Source: Hirschia maritima DSM 19733
GTDB lineage: Bacteria; Pseudomonadota; Alphaproteobacteria; Caulobacterales; Hyphomonadaceae
Reading direction: 5' to 3'
Assembly: GCF_000378345.1 (NCBI RefSeq)
Contig: NZ_KB899546.1
Span: 313,523-377,522, forward strand
Length of the DNA stretch: 64,000 bases
The notes under the pieces are model-generated. The model was not told where the DNA came from. It worked only from the letters and a program-made list of their open reading frames with translations, and ran no database searches. Positions 1,415 to 33,655 of this stretch are shown in pieces; position 1 is the first letter of the stretch; each line of letters opens with the position of its first letter. The translations under genes were made by a program, and so were the position numbers.

Positions 1415-3145
1415 GTGATGACATCAAACCAAAAGATTTCCTCAAAGCGTATTAAATTGCCGCTTCGCATAACGTTTGTGAGTGTTATTGCGTCTTTTCT
1501 TGCTGGTTTGGGTGTTCTTGTTTTTGAGATTGTGGTTGCTGGATTCCCTGCATCTGTATTCAATATAGTTGTGTGCATTTTAGTGACAATGCTGATTTCG
1601 TCGGCGATTGGTTATGTCACTTATCGTATTACTGAGAAATTATTAGGGCCTATAAACACTCTCGCAAAAGAAATACGGCGTCTGCGTCCCGGACAGGGAG
1701 ATGGGCTAACGTCTTCGGTCAGAAAAGTATCTGATGAGTTAGCGGATGCTGTGCATGATATGACAGCTAAATATGATGCAATTATTCGTAAAACTTATCA
1801 GATGTCTATTTCAGATCCGCTGACGGGTTTGATAAATAGGGCTCACTTTTTAAAGAAAACAGAAGCATATATTCTTTCGGGAGGGGAGCGGACCGTAAGT
1901 GTCGTTATTGTGGACTTGGACAGATTTAGCCGGGTTAATGACAAATTTGGCCCCCAATTAGCCGACGAGTTGTTGGTAATGGTAGGTGCGCGGTTAAAAG
2001 CTTATCTATTGGAAGCTGACTCAGCTATGCGCCCTCTAGAGCAAATTGAAGAAGCGCCAAGTCTTTTGAGCCGTTTGGCCGCTGATACCTATGCAATTGT
2101 GATCCCTTATACTTCTCAAAAAGTCGTTGAAAAGATTGTTGAGTTCCTACGTTTTCAATTGGAAAAACCATTCACTCTTGATGGACGGTTAGTTGAGTTA
2201 ACTGCAGCTTATGCGGCGGCTTCCGCACCACAAGATGCACCCAACGCTGTCGAACTAATGAAACAAGTAGATTTTTCACTAAAAACGTCAAAACATGCGA
2301 AATTCAAAGGGCTTCGCTTTTATGATTCTTCGATGCAAGAGTCGGCACAAAGAAATCTCACCTTAGAGGACGATATCCGACGGGGAATTGAAAACAAAGA
2401 ATTTATTCCTGTTTTTCAGCCCAAAATAGAGTTGGAAACGGGCGTGGTCATTGGGGCTGAAGCTTTGGCACGTTGGCGTAGACCAGATGGTGCGGTAGTT
2501 TCTCCCGGCGTCTTTGTACCAAAAGCAGAGGAATTGGGACTAATTCCTAAAATGGGTGAGAATATCCTTCGTGAAGCATGTATTGAAGCTGCAAAATGGG
2601 ATTTCAATGGACACAAGCCACGTTTGGCGGTGAATGTGTCTCCGTTACAGTTTGAAGATCCAAATTTTGTGGACATGGTCAATGATGTTCTTACCGAGTC
2701 TAGATTGCCTGCAAAACAATTGGAATTAGAACTTACCGAGACCGCGGCGGTTGATAATCCAGAGCGTGTTGCCAAAATTATGCGACCTTTGCGTGCCAAA
2801 GGAGTTCGTTTTGCAATTGATGACTTTGGAACAGGACATTCTAACTTCACGACCGTGACGCGATTGCCGTTTGATGTGTTTAAGATCGACCAACAATTCG
2901 TCCGCGCCCATGGCACTGACCCACATGCTCCAGCTATCATTGAGATGATTTTAGCGATGGCAGAAGCGCTAGGGCAGGAGACTGTGGCAGAGGGTGTTGA
3001 AACACGTGAACACTATGAGTTTTTGCGACGTCGTGCTTGCACCATCGGGCAAGGGTATTTCTTTTCTCCACCTTTACCCGCGCATGAATTTGAGAGTTTT
3101 GTGCACCATTGGCGTTCGCCTGAACTCACCAAGAAACTAGCGTAG
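1415..3145 (+). CDS. Membrane-bound EAL-domain c-di-GMP phosphodiesterase with degenerate GGDEF domain
   Basis: Predicted cyclic-di-GMP phosphodiesterase anchored in the inner membrane. Two hydrophobic helices (about residues 18-42 and 48-70) are followed by a short HAMP-like linker, a GGDEF-fold domain (about 130-305) and an EAL domain (about 320-570). The GGDEF active-site loop reads AADTY at about 222-226, so diguanylate cyclase activity should be lost. The EAL domain keeps its catalytic residues: E349 of EAL, N407, E442, DDFGTG at 469-474, K490 and E526/E529 of VAEGVET. Either GTG 1415 or ATG 1418 could be the start; neither has a strong ribosome site at normal spacing. It stands alone between hisB (divergent) and hslV. 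The regulatory input is unknown; the dead GGDEF domain may bind GTP as an allosteric effector, as in some other GGDEF-EAL proteins. Confidence 0.9.
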   Translation: MMTSNQKISSKRIKLPLRITFVSVIASFLAGLGVLVFEIVVAGFPASVFNIVVCILVTMLISSAIGYVTYRITEKLLGPINTLAKEIRRLRPGQGDGLTSSVRKVSDELADAVHDMTAKYDAIIRKTYQMSISDPLTGLINRAHFLKKTEAYILSGGERTVSVVIVDLDRFSRVNDKFGPQLADELLVMVGARLKAYLLEADSAMRPLEQIEEAPSLLSRLAADTYAIVIPYTSQKVVEKIVEFLRFQLEKPFTLDGRLVELTAAYAAASAPQDAPNAVELMKQVDFSLKTSKHAKFKGLRFYDSSMQESAQRNLTLEDDIRRGIENKEFIPVFQPKIELETGVVIGAEALARWRRPDGAVVSPGVFVPKAEELGLIPKMGENILREACIEAAKWDFNGHKPRLAVNVSPLQFEDPNFVDMVNDVLTESRLPAKQLELELTETAAVDNPERVAKIMRPLRAKGVRFAIDDFGTGHSNFTTVTRLPFDVFKIDQQFVRAHGTDPHAPAIIEMILAMAEALGQETVAEGVETREHYEFLRRRACTIGQGYFFSPPLPAHEFESFVHHWRSPELTKKLA

Positions 3146-28501: not shown

Positions 28502-28574
28502 TCAAATTTGACCTTGTTCCCTAAATGTTCTATCGCTATTAGCAGTAGTGACCGAGACTGTTTGGGGGGATATC

Positions 28575-30113
28575 ATGGTCAGTCGAATTACGACTTTTGC
28601 ATTTGAAGGTGTAACCGCTAATCCGGTTGATGTGCAGGTGCAATTATCTAGTGGTCAATCGAATTTTGCGATCGTTGGGTTGGCCGATAAAGCAGTCGCG
28701 GAAAGCCGAGAACGCGTCGGTGCTGCTTTTTCTTCTCTAGGTTTGTCGCTTCCTCCCAAAAGAATAGTTGTGAATTTGGCGCCTGCGGATTTGCCAAAGG
28801 AGGGCAGCCATTATGACTTGGCTATCGCTCTTGCCCTTTTGCAAGCAATCGAAGTTATTCCAAATGGTGCACTGGAAGATTTGGCCGCCATTGGAGAATT
28901 ATCACTCGATGGCAAAATAGCGGTCATCCCCGGAGCACTACCTGCTTCAATGGCAGCGGTAGGGTTGGGTAAAACTTTGATTTGCCCAGAAAGTTGTGGG
29001 CCTGAAGCGGCTTGGTCAGGCGGGCAGGTTTTAGGTGCTAAAAGTCTAATGGCGCTGATTTCCCACTTTAAAGGCAACCAACAGATACCTTCATCAAAAG
29101 CAGGTGAGTTAAAAGCGGATGTAAATGTGCCTGATCTAAAAGATGTGAAGGGACAAGAAGGCGCAAAAAGAGCATTGGAAATAGCCGCTGCGGGCGGCCA
29201 TAATTTAATAATGATGGGTCCGCCTGGTTCTGGAAAATCAATGCTTGCTCAACGTCTTGCAGGTATTTTACCATCACTTTCTGCTCATGAATTGTTAGAA
29301 GTTAGTCAAATCCAATCAATTGCAGGGACTTTGGAGAAAGGACAGCTATCTCGTATCCGCCCGTTTAGATCTCCGCATCACTCAGCGAGTATGGCTGCAT
29401 TAGTTGGAGGAGGGATTAAGGCGCGTCCAGGTGAAGTTTCGCTGGCTCATCATGGTGTATTGTTTTTAGATGAGTTACCCGAATTTTCCAGTCAGGTATT
29501 AGATAGTTTGCGTCAACCATTGGAGAGTGGGGAAGCGGTCATCTCCCGCGCCAATCGGCATGTAAAATATCCCAGTCGGTTCCAGTTAATAGCTGCGGCA
29601 AACCCTTGTAAATGTGGGGGAGGGCCATCTGAAAGCATGTGCCGCCGAAAACCAGCTTGTAAGGCGGATTATATAGGGCGAGTTTCTGGTCCGTTTTTGG
29701 ATCGCATGGACATATTTATAGATGTTCCTGCCGTGACCGCGATGGATTTGACATTGCCGGCTCCAACCGAGGGAAGCAAAGAAGTAGCGGGACGTGTGCT
29801 TCGGGCGAGATTGCTTCAAGAAAAGCGTTATGAAAATTCCAGTCATTCCCGAAAACTGAACGTTGATGCGGATACATCGGCAATTGATCAATTCTGCACT
29901 CCGGAGCAATCCGGCGTAGACCTACTAATGCAAGCTGCAGAGAAACTTGGCTTGTCGGCGAGGGGGTATCATCGTGTCTTGAAGGTATCCAGAACCATTG
30001 CTGATCTTGATGGTACAGAACAGATAGCACGTGTTCACGTGGCAGAAGCGCTTAACTATCGATTTAGACCAATAACTGCTTCAAAGGTCTCAAATGATAT
30101 CTTAAAGGCTTGA
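28575..30113 (+). CDS. comM: ComM/YifB-type AAA+ helicase (magnesium-chelatase-like)
   Basis: Cytoplasmic AAA+ protein; ComM drives branch migration during natural transformation and recombination. It has an N-terminal Lon-protease-like S5 fold (VQVQLSSGQSNFAIVGLADKAVAE), Walker A GPPGSGKS at 215-222, Walker B VLFLDELPEF, and a Cys-rich insert NPCKCGGGPSESMC with further Cys. The ATG at 28575 follows GGGGGGA. At 512 residues it is full length. Whether the organism is naturally competent is not shown by this gene alone, as ComM is widespread. Confidence 0.94.
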   Translation: MVSRITTFAFEGVTANPVDVQVQLSSGQSNFAIVGLADKAVAESRERVGAAFSSLGLSLPPKRIVVNLAPADLPKEGSHYDLAIALALLQAIEVIPNGALEDLAAIGELSLDGKIAVIPGALPASMAAVGLGKTLICPESCGPEAAWSGGQVLGAKSLMALISHFKGNQQIPSSKAGELKADVNVPDLKDVKGQEGAKRALEIAAAGGHNLIMMGPPGSGKSMLAQRLAGILPSLSAHELLEVSQIQSIAGTLEKGQLSRIRPFRSPHHSASMAALVGGGIKARPGEVSLAHHGVLFLDELPEFSSQVLDSLRQPLESGEAVISRANRHVKYPSRFQLIAAANPCKCGGGPSESMCRRKPACKADYIGRVSGPFLDRMDIFIDVPAVTAMDLTLPAPTEGSKEVAGRVLRARLLQEKRYENSSHSRKLNVDADTSAIDQFCTPEQSGVDLLMQAAEKLGLSARGYHRVLKVSRTIADLDGTEQIARVHVAEALNYRFRPITASKVSNDILKA

Positions 30114-30210: not shown

Positions 30211-31725
30211 ATGGCTTCTACATCTCGTATTGCAGACATTGATCATAGTGGTGAGAATGGCAAAACGGAGCCTGATACATCGCAACGATTTACTGCTTCT
30301 GTGTCTCATGAAATTCGTACCCCTTTGAATGGAATATTGGGAATGGTGTCCTTGTTAAAGGAAACCGAATTATCATTGGTTCAGAAAGAGTATGTTGAAG
30401 CGATAGGTAAAAGTGGGTCACGGCTTCTGGATCTCCTAAATAACGTTTTAGACTATTCTCGATTGGAAGCAGGCGACATTCCACTTGATGTCGCAGCATT
30501 TGATCCCGCTGAACTTATTCAAGATGTTGTCGAGCTTCTCGCTCCGCGTGCTCATACTGCCAATCTAGATATAGCAGCGGCTCCTATGCCCGAACTGCCT
30601 TATAAATTTTTAGGAGATGCGGGGCGTATTCGTCAGATTTTGTTTAATCTGGCTGGTAATGCAATCAAGTTTACCCAATCTGGCGGCATCCTTGTAACAG
30701 CGCGATACCTAGCTTCTGGTGAATTGGTTTTTGCTGTTCGCGACACGGGCTCTGGAATTCCAAAAGATGATCAGGAGAAAATTTTTTCAGCTTATGGTCA
30801 GGTATCGGCATCAGATGCTGGAAAAGATAGTGGTGTAGGACTGGGGTTGGCTATTGCTCAACGTTTGGCTACCGCCATGGGTGGTCGACTACACATTTCT
30901 AGTGAAGTGGGGCATGGGGCCGGTTTTTTCCTGACTATTCCGTTGGAGGTTTCGCCGGCGCCGAATGAAAATTCATCCGCTGATAAGAAACGCACTAAAT
31001 TATGTGTTGATCTTAATGCGAGTTGTGCGTCTCAAATTGCGGTTATCAGTTCGCTAGCCAGCTCGCAGCTAGAATGCAACCTTCCAAAAGAAAAAGAGAA
31101 GGCTGATGTGGCTGTTATTGATGCGTCACTATCGCCAGCCAAAATCAAAAAATATGTAAAAAACTCACCCACACTCGTAATTTTACGGCCAGAGGATCGC
31201 GCTCAAATTCCCAAATTTAGAGAGATGGGTTGTGTAGGGTATCTAATCCGACCATTGCGGGCGTCTTCCATCGCAAAGCGTGTCGAAATCGCAGCGCGTG
31301 GCGAAGAAATTAAAGATGCTCAAGAAAATGAAACTCAAGCTCCTAAAGGAGCTAGAGCGCTCATCGCTGATGATAATCCTGTAAATTCTTTACTTGCAAA
31401 GCGTGCTCTGACGACTGCTGGGTTTGCAGTGGATACTGTCGGCACAGGTGCCGAGGCATTAGAGGCCGCCCAAAATACACCATATTCTATCATTTTTATG
31501 GATGTAAGAATGCCAGTTATGGATGGTTTAGAAGCGACACGCCGCATTCGTGAAATGGATGGATCAAAAGGCAAAGTGCCAGTCATTGCTGTTACGGCTG
31601 ACGTCGATCCCGATCTTGAAGCTAAAGCTGAAAATGTTGGGGTTAGCCTGATCGCTGCCAAACCGATTGATCCGCAACGCTTACGTGACCTAGCTTTGAG
31701 CTGGGCAATGTCTGAAGGAAGTTAG
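30211..31725 (+). CDS. Cytoplasmic hybrid histidine kinase with internal pseudo-receiver (ShkA-like)
   Basis: A soluble 504-residue kinase without membrane segments or PAS domain. In order: H-box with H33 (SHEIRTPLNG), N-box (NLAGNAIKFTQ, about 146-156), G1 (DTGSGIPKDD, D178), and G2 (SGVGLGLAIAQRL). A degenerate receiver follows (about 262-363, no acidic pocket or phospho-Asp, containing LRPEDR and GYLIRPLR). A full receiver comes last (about 381-500) with D386/D387, phospho-Asp D431 and K484. This layout resembles ShkA of Caulobacter, where the pseudo-receiver binds c-di-GMP and frees the kinase. That control here is inference. It ends 4 nt before the AmpG-like gene, so the two may be co-transcribed. 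Confidence 0.92.
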   Translation: MASTSRIADIDHSGENGKTEPDTSQRFTASVSHEIRTPLNGILGMVSLLKETELSLVQKEYVEAIGKSGSRLLDLLNNVLDYSRLEAGDIPLDVAAFDPAELIQDVVELLAPRAHTANLDIAAAPMPELPYKFLGDAGRIRQILFNLAGNAIKFTQSGGILVTARYLASGELVFAVRDTGSGIPKDDQEKIFSAYGQVSASDAGKDSGVGLGLAIAQRLATAMGGRLHISSEVGHGAGFFLTIPLEVSPAPNENSSADKKRTKLCVDLNASCASQIAVISSLASSQLECNLPKEKEKADVAVIDASLSPAKIKKYVKNSPTLVILRPEDRAQIPKFREMGCVGYLIRPLRASSIAKRVEIAARGEEIKDAQENETQAPKGARALIADDNPVNSLLAKRALTTAGFAVDTVGTGAEALEAAQNTPYSIIFMDVRMPVMDGLEATRRIREMDGSKGKVPVIAVTADVDPDLEAKAENVGVSLIAAKPIDPQRLRDLALSWAMSEGS

Positions 31726-31729
31726 GAAT

Positions 31730-33655
31730 ATGATAGCTGGGATAAATTCGAAATTAGATACTCTTGGCACTTATTTCAAAAACGCTTTAGGTCCTTATAG
31801 CAGCCCAAAAATTGCGAGTATGTTGGTTCTTGGGTTTTCATCTGGATTACCCATTCTCCTGCTTTATGGTACGTTTTCAACTCGCCTGCGTGAAGCTGGA
31901 ATTAGCCGGACAACAATTGGCTTTTTATCATTAATTGGATTGTTCTACGCTTTTAAATTTTTATGGGCTCCGTTTATTGATCGTTGGAAAGTTCCAGGTC
32001 TGTCTAAAATTTTGGGTCAAAGGCGAGCATGGATTCTTGTCTGCCAAATCGGACTGATAATTGGATTGGTGTCACTTGGGATTAGCGATCCGGCCAGCAA
32101 TCTTGTCTGGACATCCATTTGCGCGGTGATCGTTGCATTCTTTTCTGCCACACAGGACATTGTAATTGATGGTTGGCGTATCGATGTGGCCAATGATGAT
32201 GATCAAGGCGACATGGCCGCTGCAACACAGATTGGTTATAGGTTTGGATTGATTGTCGCCGGGGGTGGGGCATTGGCTTTTGCTGATGCTATCGACTGGA
32301 CATTGGCATATTGGTTTATGGCGCTGATGATAGCTATTGCCGGAATTGGGTTATTTAAGGTTTGCGAACCAGATAGATCTGAATGGATATCGGAAAATTT
32401 TTCTCTCAAACCAATAATGACAGGCATTGTTGCTGCTTTTGTGGGCTTGTTTTTTTCAATTGCCATTTTGCAATTCGTCAGTCCCGAATTGGTCAATGTT
32501 CTCGATTCCAATGGCAACCCTGTTTTAGGGGATGATGGAAATAATATCACAAAAGAATCTAATGGTTATAGAATTTTTGCGCTACTTTATCTCGCCGGTG
32601 CTTGGGTTCCGGTCTTCATTTCATGCCTGGTTTTTTTGATACCCAAAGCATCGAATTTTTTGGTTGAAGAAACAATTGAGATATCGAAGGAAATTTTAAA
32701 AGCTGTTGCCTTCATATTTGTACTCGGCTTGTTTTTGTTGAGTATTGTGCAAGGTGTAAGAACATACTTTCAATGGGACCAATTGATCGCCGATTACACG
32801 GGACGAGGTGATCTCTCTGTATTATATGGATGGTCACTACAATTATTGAGTTATGTTGTCAGCGCGTTAGGCTTTGTGCTTGGAAAAATATCTTCCTTTT
32901 TCTCTCTTATTTTACAATATGGCGGCGTGTATGCACTCGTTATTTTAGCGCTTTTACCATTTTGTTTTGCCTCAGGATTGGGTGTTTTTTTCAGAACAAA
33001 CAAAGTGTCAGAAAGTCTCTCCAAAGGTGTTGTTCTCGGTGCATTTGTTGACTACGCACGTAAGTACGGCCCGGGAGCTGGCCTTTTACTTTTGATGATA
33101 GCAACCTACCGTATGACAGATACAACAATGGGTGTGATGGCCAAGCCGTTTTATGTTGAACAGGGGTTCACCAAAACAGAAGTTGGATTGATCTCGGGAT
33201 CTTTGGGCCCTTGGATATTGCTGGTAGGGGCTATTTTTGCCGGTATTTCAATTCGATATTTGGGTTTATTTAAGTCGTTGGTTATTGGTGAACTTCTGAT
33301 GATCACGACTAACGCTGCTTTTGCTTGGTTGGCGATGCAATCTGATTCAATTTTCTGGCATTTGTGCGTCACGATTACAGCCGACAATATAGCTGCAGGT
33401 TTTGCCGGCACAGTGTTTATTGCTTACATGTCGTCTTTGACATCCAAAGGGTTTTCAGCAACGCAATATGCTTTGTTTACATCATTCTTCGCGTTGTATG
33501 GAAAATTATTGGCCAGCATGTCAGGTGTTCTAGCTGATGAAGTCGGGTGGGAGGCATTTTTTCTGATTACAGCCGCGATTGGAATTCCCGCAATGATTAT
33601 TCTGTTCTTGGTTCGATATTTCAAATCGGATGAACCGTCACTCGAAAATGCCTAA
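31730..33655 (+). CDS. AmpG-like MFS permease (muropeptide transporter family), enlarged
   Basis: Inner-membrane major-facilitator protein of the AmpG family, which imports anhydro-muropeptides for cell-wall recycling. FSSGLPILLLYGTFSTRLREAGI, FKFLWAPFIDRW and FSATQDIVIDGWRID are typical AmpG segments. At 641 residues it is some 150 longer than E. coli AmpG. The extra length is in the middle (about 230-450) and adds hydrophobic helices and a loop. GAAGGAAG precedes the ATG. It probably shares a transcript with the hybrid kinase. AmpG function is inferred from family, not from neighbours. Confidence 0.85.
   Translation: MIAGINSKLDTLGTYFKNALGPYSSPKIASMLVLGFSSGLPILLLYGTFSTRLREAGISRTTIGFLSLIGLFYAFKFLWAPFIDRWKVPGLSKILGQRRAWILVCQIGLIIGLVSLGISDPASNLVWTSICAVIVAFFSATQDIVIDGWRIDVANDDDQGDMAAATQIGYRFGLIVAGGGALAFADAIDWTLAYWFMALMIAIAGIGLFKVCEPDRSEWISENFSLKPIMTGIVAAFVGLFFSIAILQFVSPELVNVLDSNGNPVLGDDGNNITKESNGYRIFALLYLAGAWVPVFISCLVFLIPKASNFLVEETIEISKEILKAVAFIFVLGLFLLSIVQGVRTYFQWDQLIADYTGRGDLSVLYGWSLQLLSYVVSALGFVLGKISSFFSLILQYGGVYALVILALLPFCFASGLGVFFRTNKVSESLSKGVVLGAFVDYARKYGPGAGLLLLMIATYRMTDTTMGVMAKPFYVEQGFTKTEVGLISGSLGPWILLVGAIFAGISIRYLGLFKSLVIGELLMITTNAAFAWLAMQSDSIFWHLCVTITADNIAAGFAGTVFIAYMSSLTSKGFSATQYALFTSFFALYGKLLASMSGVLADEVGWEAFFLITAAIGIPAMIILFLVRYFKSDEPSLENA

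Follow-up and report, generated by a model that had tools for sequence, protein, structure and literature searches.

Hirschia maritima encodes an orthologue of the hybrid kinase ShkA whose receiver linker lacks the DDR motif

The hybrid histidine kinase ShkA of Caulobacter is a model for c-di-GMP gating via a pseudo-receiver, and passages of PMC10779265 describe it as the first two-receiver hybrid kinase to be solved in full. The linker between its receivers, REC1 and REC2, carries a DDR motif (D369-R371) that helps keep REC2 in the off state, according to passages of PMC7010744. c-di-GMP competes with this motif for REC1 (passages of PMC7010744 and PMC10779265). In Caulobacter, signalling or activity is regained independently of c-di-GMP when D369 or R371 is mutated, and binding of the nucleotide persists in the D369N protein (PMC7010744, same passages).

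A 64,000-nucleotide stretch of the Hirschia maritima DSM 19733 genome, referred to here as the window, encodes a soluble protein of similar design (the Hirschia kinase; Table 1). A preliminary description, made from the sequence of the window, proposed that it could be gated by c-di-GMP as ShkA is. Two questions follow. Is the protein the counterpart of ShkA by descent, or one of many hybrid kinases that happen to share its layout? And what would hold it in the off state? We report that it is a known kind of protein with one real variation, the absence of the DDR linker motif, which the preliminary description missed.

Table 1. Features of the Hirschia kinase locus, with positions in the window.
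Feature	Position	Strand	Extent and basis
ShkA-orthologue gene (Hirschia kinase)	30211..31725	+	504 aa, soluble hybrid histidine kinase
HisKA/DHp domain, phospho-His H33	30283..30474	+	residues 25-88; Pfam, alignment
HATPase_c/CA domain	30613..30948	+	residues 135-246; Pfam
REC1 pseudo-receiver	30994..31299	+	residues 262-363; 6qrl match, modelled beta-alpha fold
D304, phospho-Asp position of REC1	31120..31122	+	aligned with ShkA D297
RPEDR of REC1 (R326, D329, R330)	31186..31200	+	alignment
GYLIRPLRASS, presumed c-di-GMP surface (Y344, R347, R350, S353)	31237..31269	+	alignment
REC1-REC2 linker without DDR	31297..31353	+	residues 363-381
Acidic stretch DAQENE in REC1-REC2 linker	31315-31332	+	
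REC2 canonical receiver, phospho-Asp D431	31360..31689	+	residues 384-493; Pfam, alignment
comM-like Mg-chelatase-family gene	28548..30113	+	conserved neighbour upstream of kinase
MFS transporter gene, ampG position	31730..33655	+	conserved neighbour downstream of kinase

The domain order given in the preliminary description, HisKA, HATPase, pseudo-receiver and receiver, is borne out by Pfam, by a match to the structure 6qrl, by the modelled fold and by alignment. Pfam detects just one Response_reg domain in the protein, at residues 384-493, and no domain ahead of HisKA. Searched alone, the REC1 stretch has no Pfam receiver match at E values up to 10 (HMMER filters apply); it does match ShkA Rec1 (6qrl) with an E value of 6.1e-7, and AlphaFold gives residues 261-370 the beta-alpha fold of a receiver, with block pLDDT values of 85-97. 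The working residues are intact in the alignment: H33 in the HisKA domain and D387, D388, D431 and K484 in REC2.

To place the protein we compared it with relatives grouped in families: f1, the family of the Hirschia kinase (101 genomes), which is presumably Hyphomonadaceae or near; f2, the Caulobacter group, presumably Caulobacteraceae, which includes the Caulobacter genome G192; and f3, f4 and f5. A match at E<=1e-60 occurs in 98 of the 101 f1 genomes and is single in 92; six genomes hold a second, weaker kinase match, at 1e-65 to 1e-68. The alignment comprises 155 orthologues: 98 from f1, the Hirschia kinase included, 29 from f2 (of 98 matching genomes), 14 from f3 (of 28), 11 from f5 (of 25), two from f4 (of three) and one from L031, an unplaced Caulobacterales metagenome-assembled genome. 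Five duplicate rows were removed, and the f2 rows number 29 because L159 was dropped, its shkA being split across two frames. That locus, in the Caulobacter-group genome G291, has shkA in two overlapping frames and may be a pseudogene or an assembly error. For f4, the E<=1e-75 limit may by itself account for the many genomes with no match. L031 was the sole match labelled Caulobacterales among the best 80 kept from a wider scan of contigs; seven of the other matches were inspected and five of these were taken as the outgroup for a tree. The f3 and f5 orthologues (for example L179 and L188) lie in open frames of 575-683 aa, with two of 771 and 794 aa. The Hirschia frame is 507 aa from stop to stop, and long frames occur in f1 and f2 as well; because all these frames run stop to stop, N-terminal extensions before HisKA in f3 and f5 are a hint only.

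Three lines of evidence bear on descent. The best solved relative of the Hirschia kinase is 6qrj, full-length ShkA, matched over residues 28-499 with an E value of 5.8e-88 (phmmer); the next solved match is far weaker (4.6e-55). The two proteins are 38% identical in the alignment. The window shares the gene order rsmI-yraN-gshB-comM-kinase-MFS with G192, which encodes a kinase of 99% identity to the 6qrj chain. In the window the MFS gene starts 4 bases past the kinase stop, and in C. crescentus ampG lies downstream of shkA (passages of PMC7010744). Among 20 loci from other genomes, comM or the MFS gene stands beside the kinase in most and many have a partial block; L179 and L185 keep the MFS gene only, and L183 keeps neither. 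Finally, a tree with the five unrelated hybrid kinases as outgroup and 27 f1 rows makes each family one clade, with SH-aLRT values of 99 for the ingroup, 100 for f1, 99 for f2, 87 for f3 and 98 for f5. A second tree, without the unrelated kinases and with 31 f1 rows, agrees: one clade per family, with 100/100 for f1. Both trees show f1, f2 and f3 at a fork without a firm branching order.

Could the protein instead be a BarA/GacS-like hybrid kinase, of which there are many, whose pseudo-receiver is generic? The domain databases lend this some colour: no ShkA model is among the best 25 of 135 NCBIfam rows, and the top row is BarA. That match reaches 311.9 of 890 bits, far under the cut-off, as does the match to the RcsC model. 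BarA, GacS and RcsC are membrane sensors with N-terminal input domains, unlike the Hirschia kinase. What they share with it is the order HisKA-HATPase-pseudoREC-REC (passages of PMC7010744). Gene order, both trees and the lead of 6qrj over the next structure contradict this alternative, which we regard as highly improbable. By sequence, neighbour order and tree, the Hirschia kinase is a ShkA orthologue by descent, so that the resemblance to ShkA first noted proves to be true orthology. It is like ShkA (6qrj, 6qrl) in its domain order, its catalytic residues, its gene neighbours and its want of an N-terminal sensor domain.

Are the other members of the relay present? The preliminary description placed a TacA-like partner elsewhere in the genome, and we found one: an NtrC-type regulator at C3:519840-521330 that is 63% identical to the Caulobacter protein L193 in G192 and forms a reciprocal best pair with it. 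The comparison with G192 covered four other sigma-54 activators of the Hirschia genome. L194, L195 and L196, which we take to be FlbD, NtrX and NtrC, are the best partners of three of them; the fourth, L167, has no close partner there. Counted from its likely start, residue 54 of L193 is the receiver Asp, and a TacA D54E allele is named in passages of PMC7010744. We take L193 to be TacA by elimination and because residue 54 fits this allele. A single-domain Hpt protein of 123 residues (C4:242215-242583) matches L203 of G192 with 41% identity over 71 aa (E 2.7e-17); L203 is presumably ShpA. There is another Hpt pair, L164-L205: the Hirschia genome encodes, at C1:568749-569012, a second small Hpt protein that is 44% identical to Caulobacter L205 over 151 residues and is thus a conserved Hpt distinct from the partner of L203. 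At C1:707938-709658 two frames, of 140 and 472 aa, encode a receiver and, after it, a REC-REC-GGDEF protein, a pair that looks like DivK-PleD. The genome, like that of Caulobacter, holds both a TacA orthologue and a PleD-like protein. The window itself encodes, at 1415-3145 (+), a GGDEF-EAL protein with a hydrophobic N-terminus. Its EAL domain is strong (E 2.3e-69) and its GGDEF signature is, by eye, degenerate (AADTY instead), so it is probably a c-di-GMP phosphodiesterase.

Matches to the kinase, to TacA and to the Hpt protein were compared across f1. Among the 101 genomes the kinase is missed in three (E<=1e-60), TacA in five (E<=1e-130) and Hpt in four (E<=1e-6). Two genomes, G001 (97% complete, 520 contigs) and G086 (90%, 20 contigs), match none of the three, and there the shkA query finds other kinases only. 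The third, G078, has a 77-residue piece of shkA together with full TacA and Hpt matches. The piece (C80:26613-26843, 65% identity, in a 95-aa frame) may reflect recent decay or a contig edge. The kinase occurs without a TacA match in G059, G090 and G098, and without an Hpt match in G059 and G062, all four being fragmented drafts of 330 to 610 contigs. With G078 scored as kinase-less, Fisher's P is 0.0058 for TacA and 0.0035 for Hpt; scored as kinase-positive, it is 0.0020 and 0.0012, a choice made afterwards. Co-occurrence of this kind is weak proof of partnership. Passages of PMC12700997 report that two Caulobacteraceae lineages without flagella lost shkA and shpA along with other c-di-GMP genes.

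How much of the ShkA pocket survives in REC1? When REC1 is aligned with ShkA Rec1, the residues R324, Y338, R344 and S347 of the ShkA set are all matched, by R330, Y344, R350 and S353. Among the 98 f1 sequences R330 is kept in 97, R350 in all and S353 in 95; position 344 is aromatic in every one, Tyr in 27 and Trp in 71. Y338 matters in ShkA, according to passages of PMC7010744. The preliminary description had picked out R326, Y344, R347 and R350 as resembling the part of ShkA to which c-di-GMP binds. Y344 and R350 stand. R347 is a substitution for ShkA K341, the beta-5 Lys, and the alignment rules out R326 as a ShkA contact: it replaces T320, the beta-4 Thr/Ser, and the true equivalent of R324 is R330. 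Both new arginines are nonetheless invariant in f1 (98/98), as is D329, and Arg at the R326 position is found in five of the 29 f2 proteins as well.

It had also been said that REC1 lost its acidic pocket and its phospho-Asp, and here the claim divides. The acidic pair after beta-1 is gone; the phospho-Asp is present, since beta-3 ends in D304, the counterpart of ShkA D297. The label of pseudo-receiver stands because REC1 lacks three features of canonical receivers: the acidic pair, the Thr and the Lys. Asp is found at the D304 position in 29/29 f2, 13/14 f3 and 11/11 f5 sequences. A salt bridge from D304 to the new arginines was considered as a conserved device and rejected: 31 of the 98 f1 proteins have the Asp and all 98 have the arginines.

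Conservation within REC1 is higher in the beta4-alpha5 part (mean 0.74) than in the N-half (0.51). Arg three residues past the Lys/Arg position occurs in 155 of 155 orthologues and at the equivalent place in REC2, which shares the receiver fold, in none of the 155; KPxR alone is unspecific, being present in two of seven unrelated hybrid kinases. Six of the 16 REC1 residues mutated in PMC7010744 fall among the 11 of 102 positions conserved at >=95% (P 0.0017), in a count that includes K341 (Arg in the Hirschia kinase) and reads one misprinted name as L339. This last test is partly circular because those residues were picked by conservation. Conservation of the ligand surface supports, and is consistent with, binding of c-di-GMP by REC1.

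The linker is another matter. The alignment reveals no DDR motif in the linker of the Hirschia kinase, which is unlike ShkA in this, in being about eight residues shorter, and in having Arg for T320 and K341. D[DE]R occurs in 29/29 f2 and 10/14 f3 linkers and in L031, and in 1/98 from f1, 0/11 from f5 and 0/2 from f4. The sole f1 carrier, L214, sits inside the f1 clade together with L207, the one further aligned sequence from its genus, whose linker reads DEQ. Between ShkA positions 348 and 383 the linker has a median of 28 residues in f1 versus 36 in f2. What f1 does have is acid. Counted from the second REC2 Asp, an acidic residue stands at -16 in 78% and at -15 in 76% of the 98 sequences, with D and E interchanging; in f2, DD lies at -18/-17, so that the f1 acid is two residues closer to REC2. 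An adjacent acidic pair within -18..-13 is found in 66/98 f1 proteins; the Hirschia kinase has ENE there (within DAQENE) and no adjacent pair. The Arg of DDR is gone: R or K occurs anywhere in -18..-13 in 17/98. In four of five f5 linkers inspected (L188, L189, L190 and L192) RLD replaces DDR, perhaps as another lock.

Structural models do not speak to this point. A ShkA control model compared with the crystal gave a TM score of 0.66 and an rmsd of 11.4 at 95% identity, and its domain arrangement was not reproduced; the Hirschia kinase model gave a TM score of 0.59. As the control is arranged unlike its own crystal, the Hirschia model is silent on the lock, and we rejected AlphaFold inter-domain arrangement as evidence.

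We consider it fairly probable, from these comparisons, that the protein is the ShkA orthologue of a stalked budding bacterium and acts in a c-di-GMP-activated relay with an off-state lock differing from that of Caulobacter. PleD would raise c-di-GMP at the swarmer-to-stalked transition; the nucleotide would bind the alpha4-beta5-alpha5 face of REC1 through R330, Y344, R350 and S353, probably together with R326 and R347. REC2 would thereby be freed, H33 would autophosphorylate, and phosphate would pass from H33 to D431, to the single-domain Hpt protein in the role of ShpA, and on to the TacA orthologue. The off-state lock would most likely be the acidic linker stretch, docked on the enlarged arginine pocket and displaced by c-di-GMP. 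Against this account stand the absence of DDR, an acidic pair that is not universal, Trp in place of Y344 in most relatives, Arg at the R326 position in some f2 proteins and KPxR in unrelated hybrid kinases. A more specific version, in which f1 rewired the ShkA switch as a unit, from a DDR plug to a purely acidic plug facing a four-arginine pocket (R326, R330, R347, R350), is one we entertain only tentatively.

What is most likely is that c-di-GMP still binds REC1 and that the lock has been either rebuilt or lost. Gating by c-di-GMP is a weaker claim than it would otherwise be, because DDR is absent and its mutation frees the Caulobacter kinase. The kinase might therefore bind c-di-GMP yet be unlocked: active by default and merely tuned by its ligand, or controlled through expression, proteolysis or another partner. 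The absence of D[DE]R from 97/98 f1 proteins and the shorter linker fit such a kinase, as do the Caulobacter D369 and R371 mutants, active without c-di-GMP, and the D369N protein that still binds it; indeed, an unlocked kinase fits the loss of DDR nearly as well as an acidic plug does. Yet the pocket is strongly conserved, and acid at -16/-15 in most of f1 would be needless in a mere spacer. We favour a rebuilt lock because of this acid and the invariance of R326 and R347, and we judge an unlocked kinase unlikely. Less likely again is that REC1 no longer senses c-di-GMP, its Arg-rich pocket serving another ligand, a protein partner or a structural end. The exchange of T320 and K341 for arginines throughout f1, the frequent change from Tyr to Trp and the long stem of f1 in the first tree (0.96) would all suit such a change of function; R330, R350, S353 and an aromatic residue at 344 are retained as in ShkA, and the genome encodes a PleD-like protein, a TacA orthologue and an Hpt protein, which argues against it.

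Among the open-licence titles and opening lines of abstracts listed, none announced a ShkA lacking DDR and none dealt with the protein in Hyphomonas or Hirschia; alignments in the supplement of PMC7010744 may show such variants. The main text of PMC7200025, on Hyphomonas neptunium, does not mention ShkA, TacA or ShpA, and the passages seen of PMC13269768 do not name ShkA. If f1 has indeed rewired the switch, c-di-GMP would gate its kinases through another lock and possibly at another threshold. In keeping the pocket without the published lock, f1 offers a natural experiment on the gating part of ShkA, in stalked budding bacteria.
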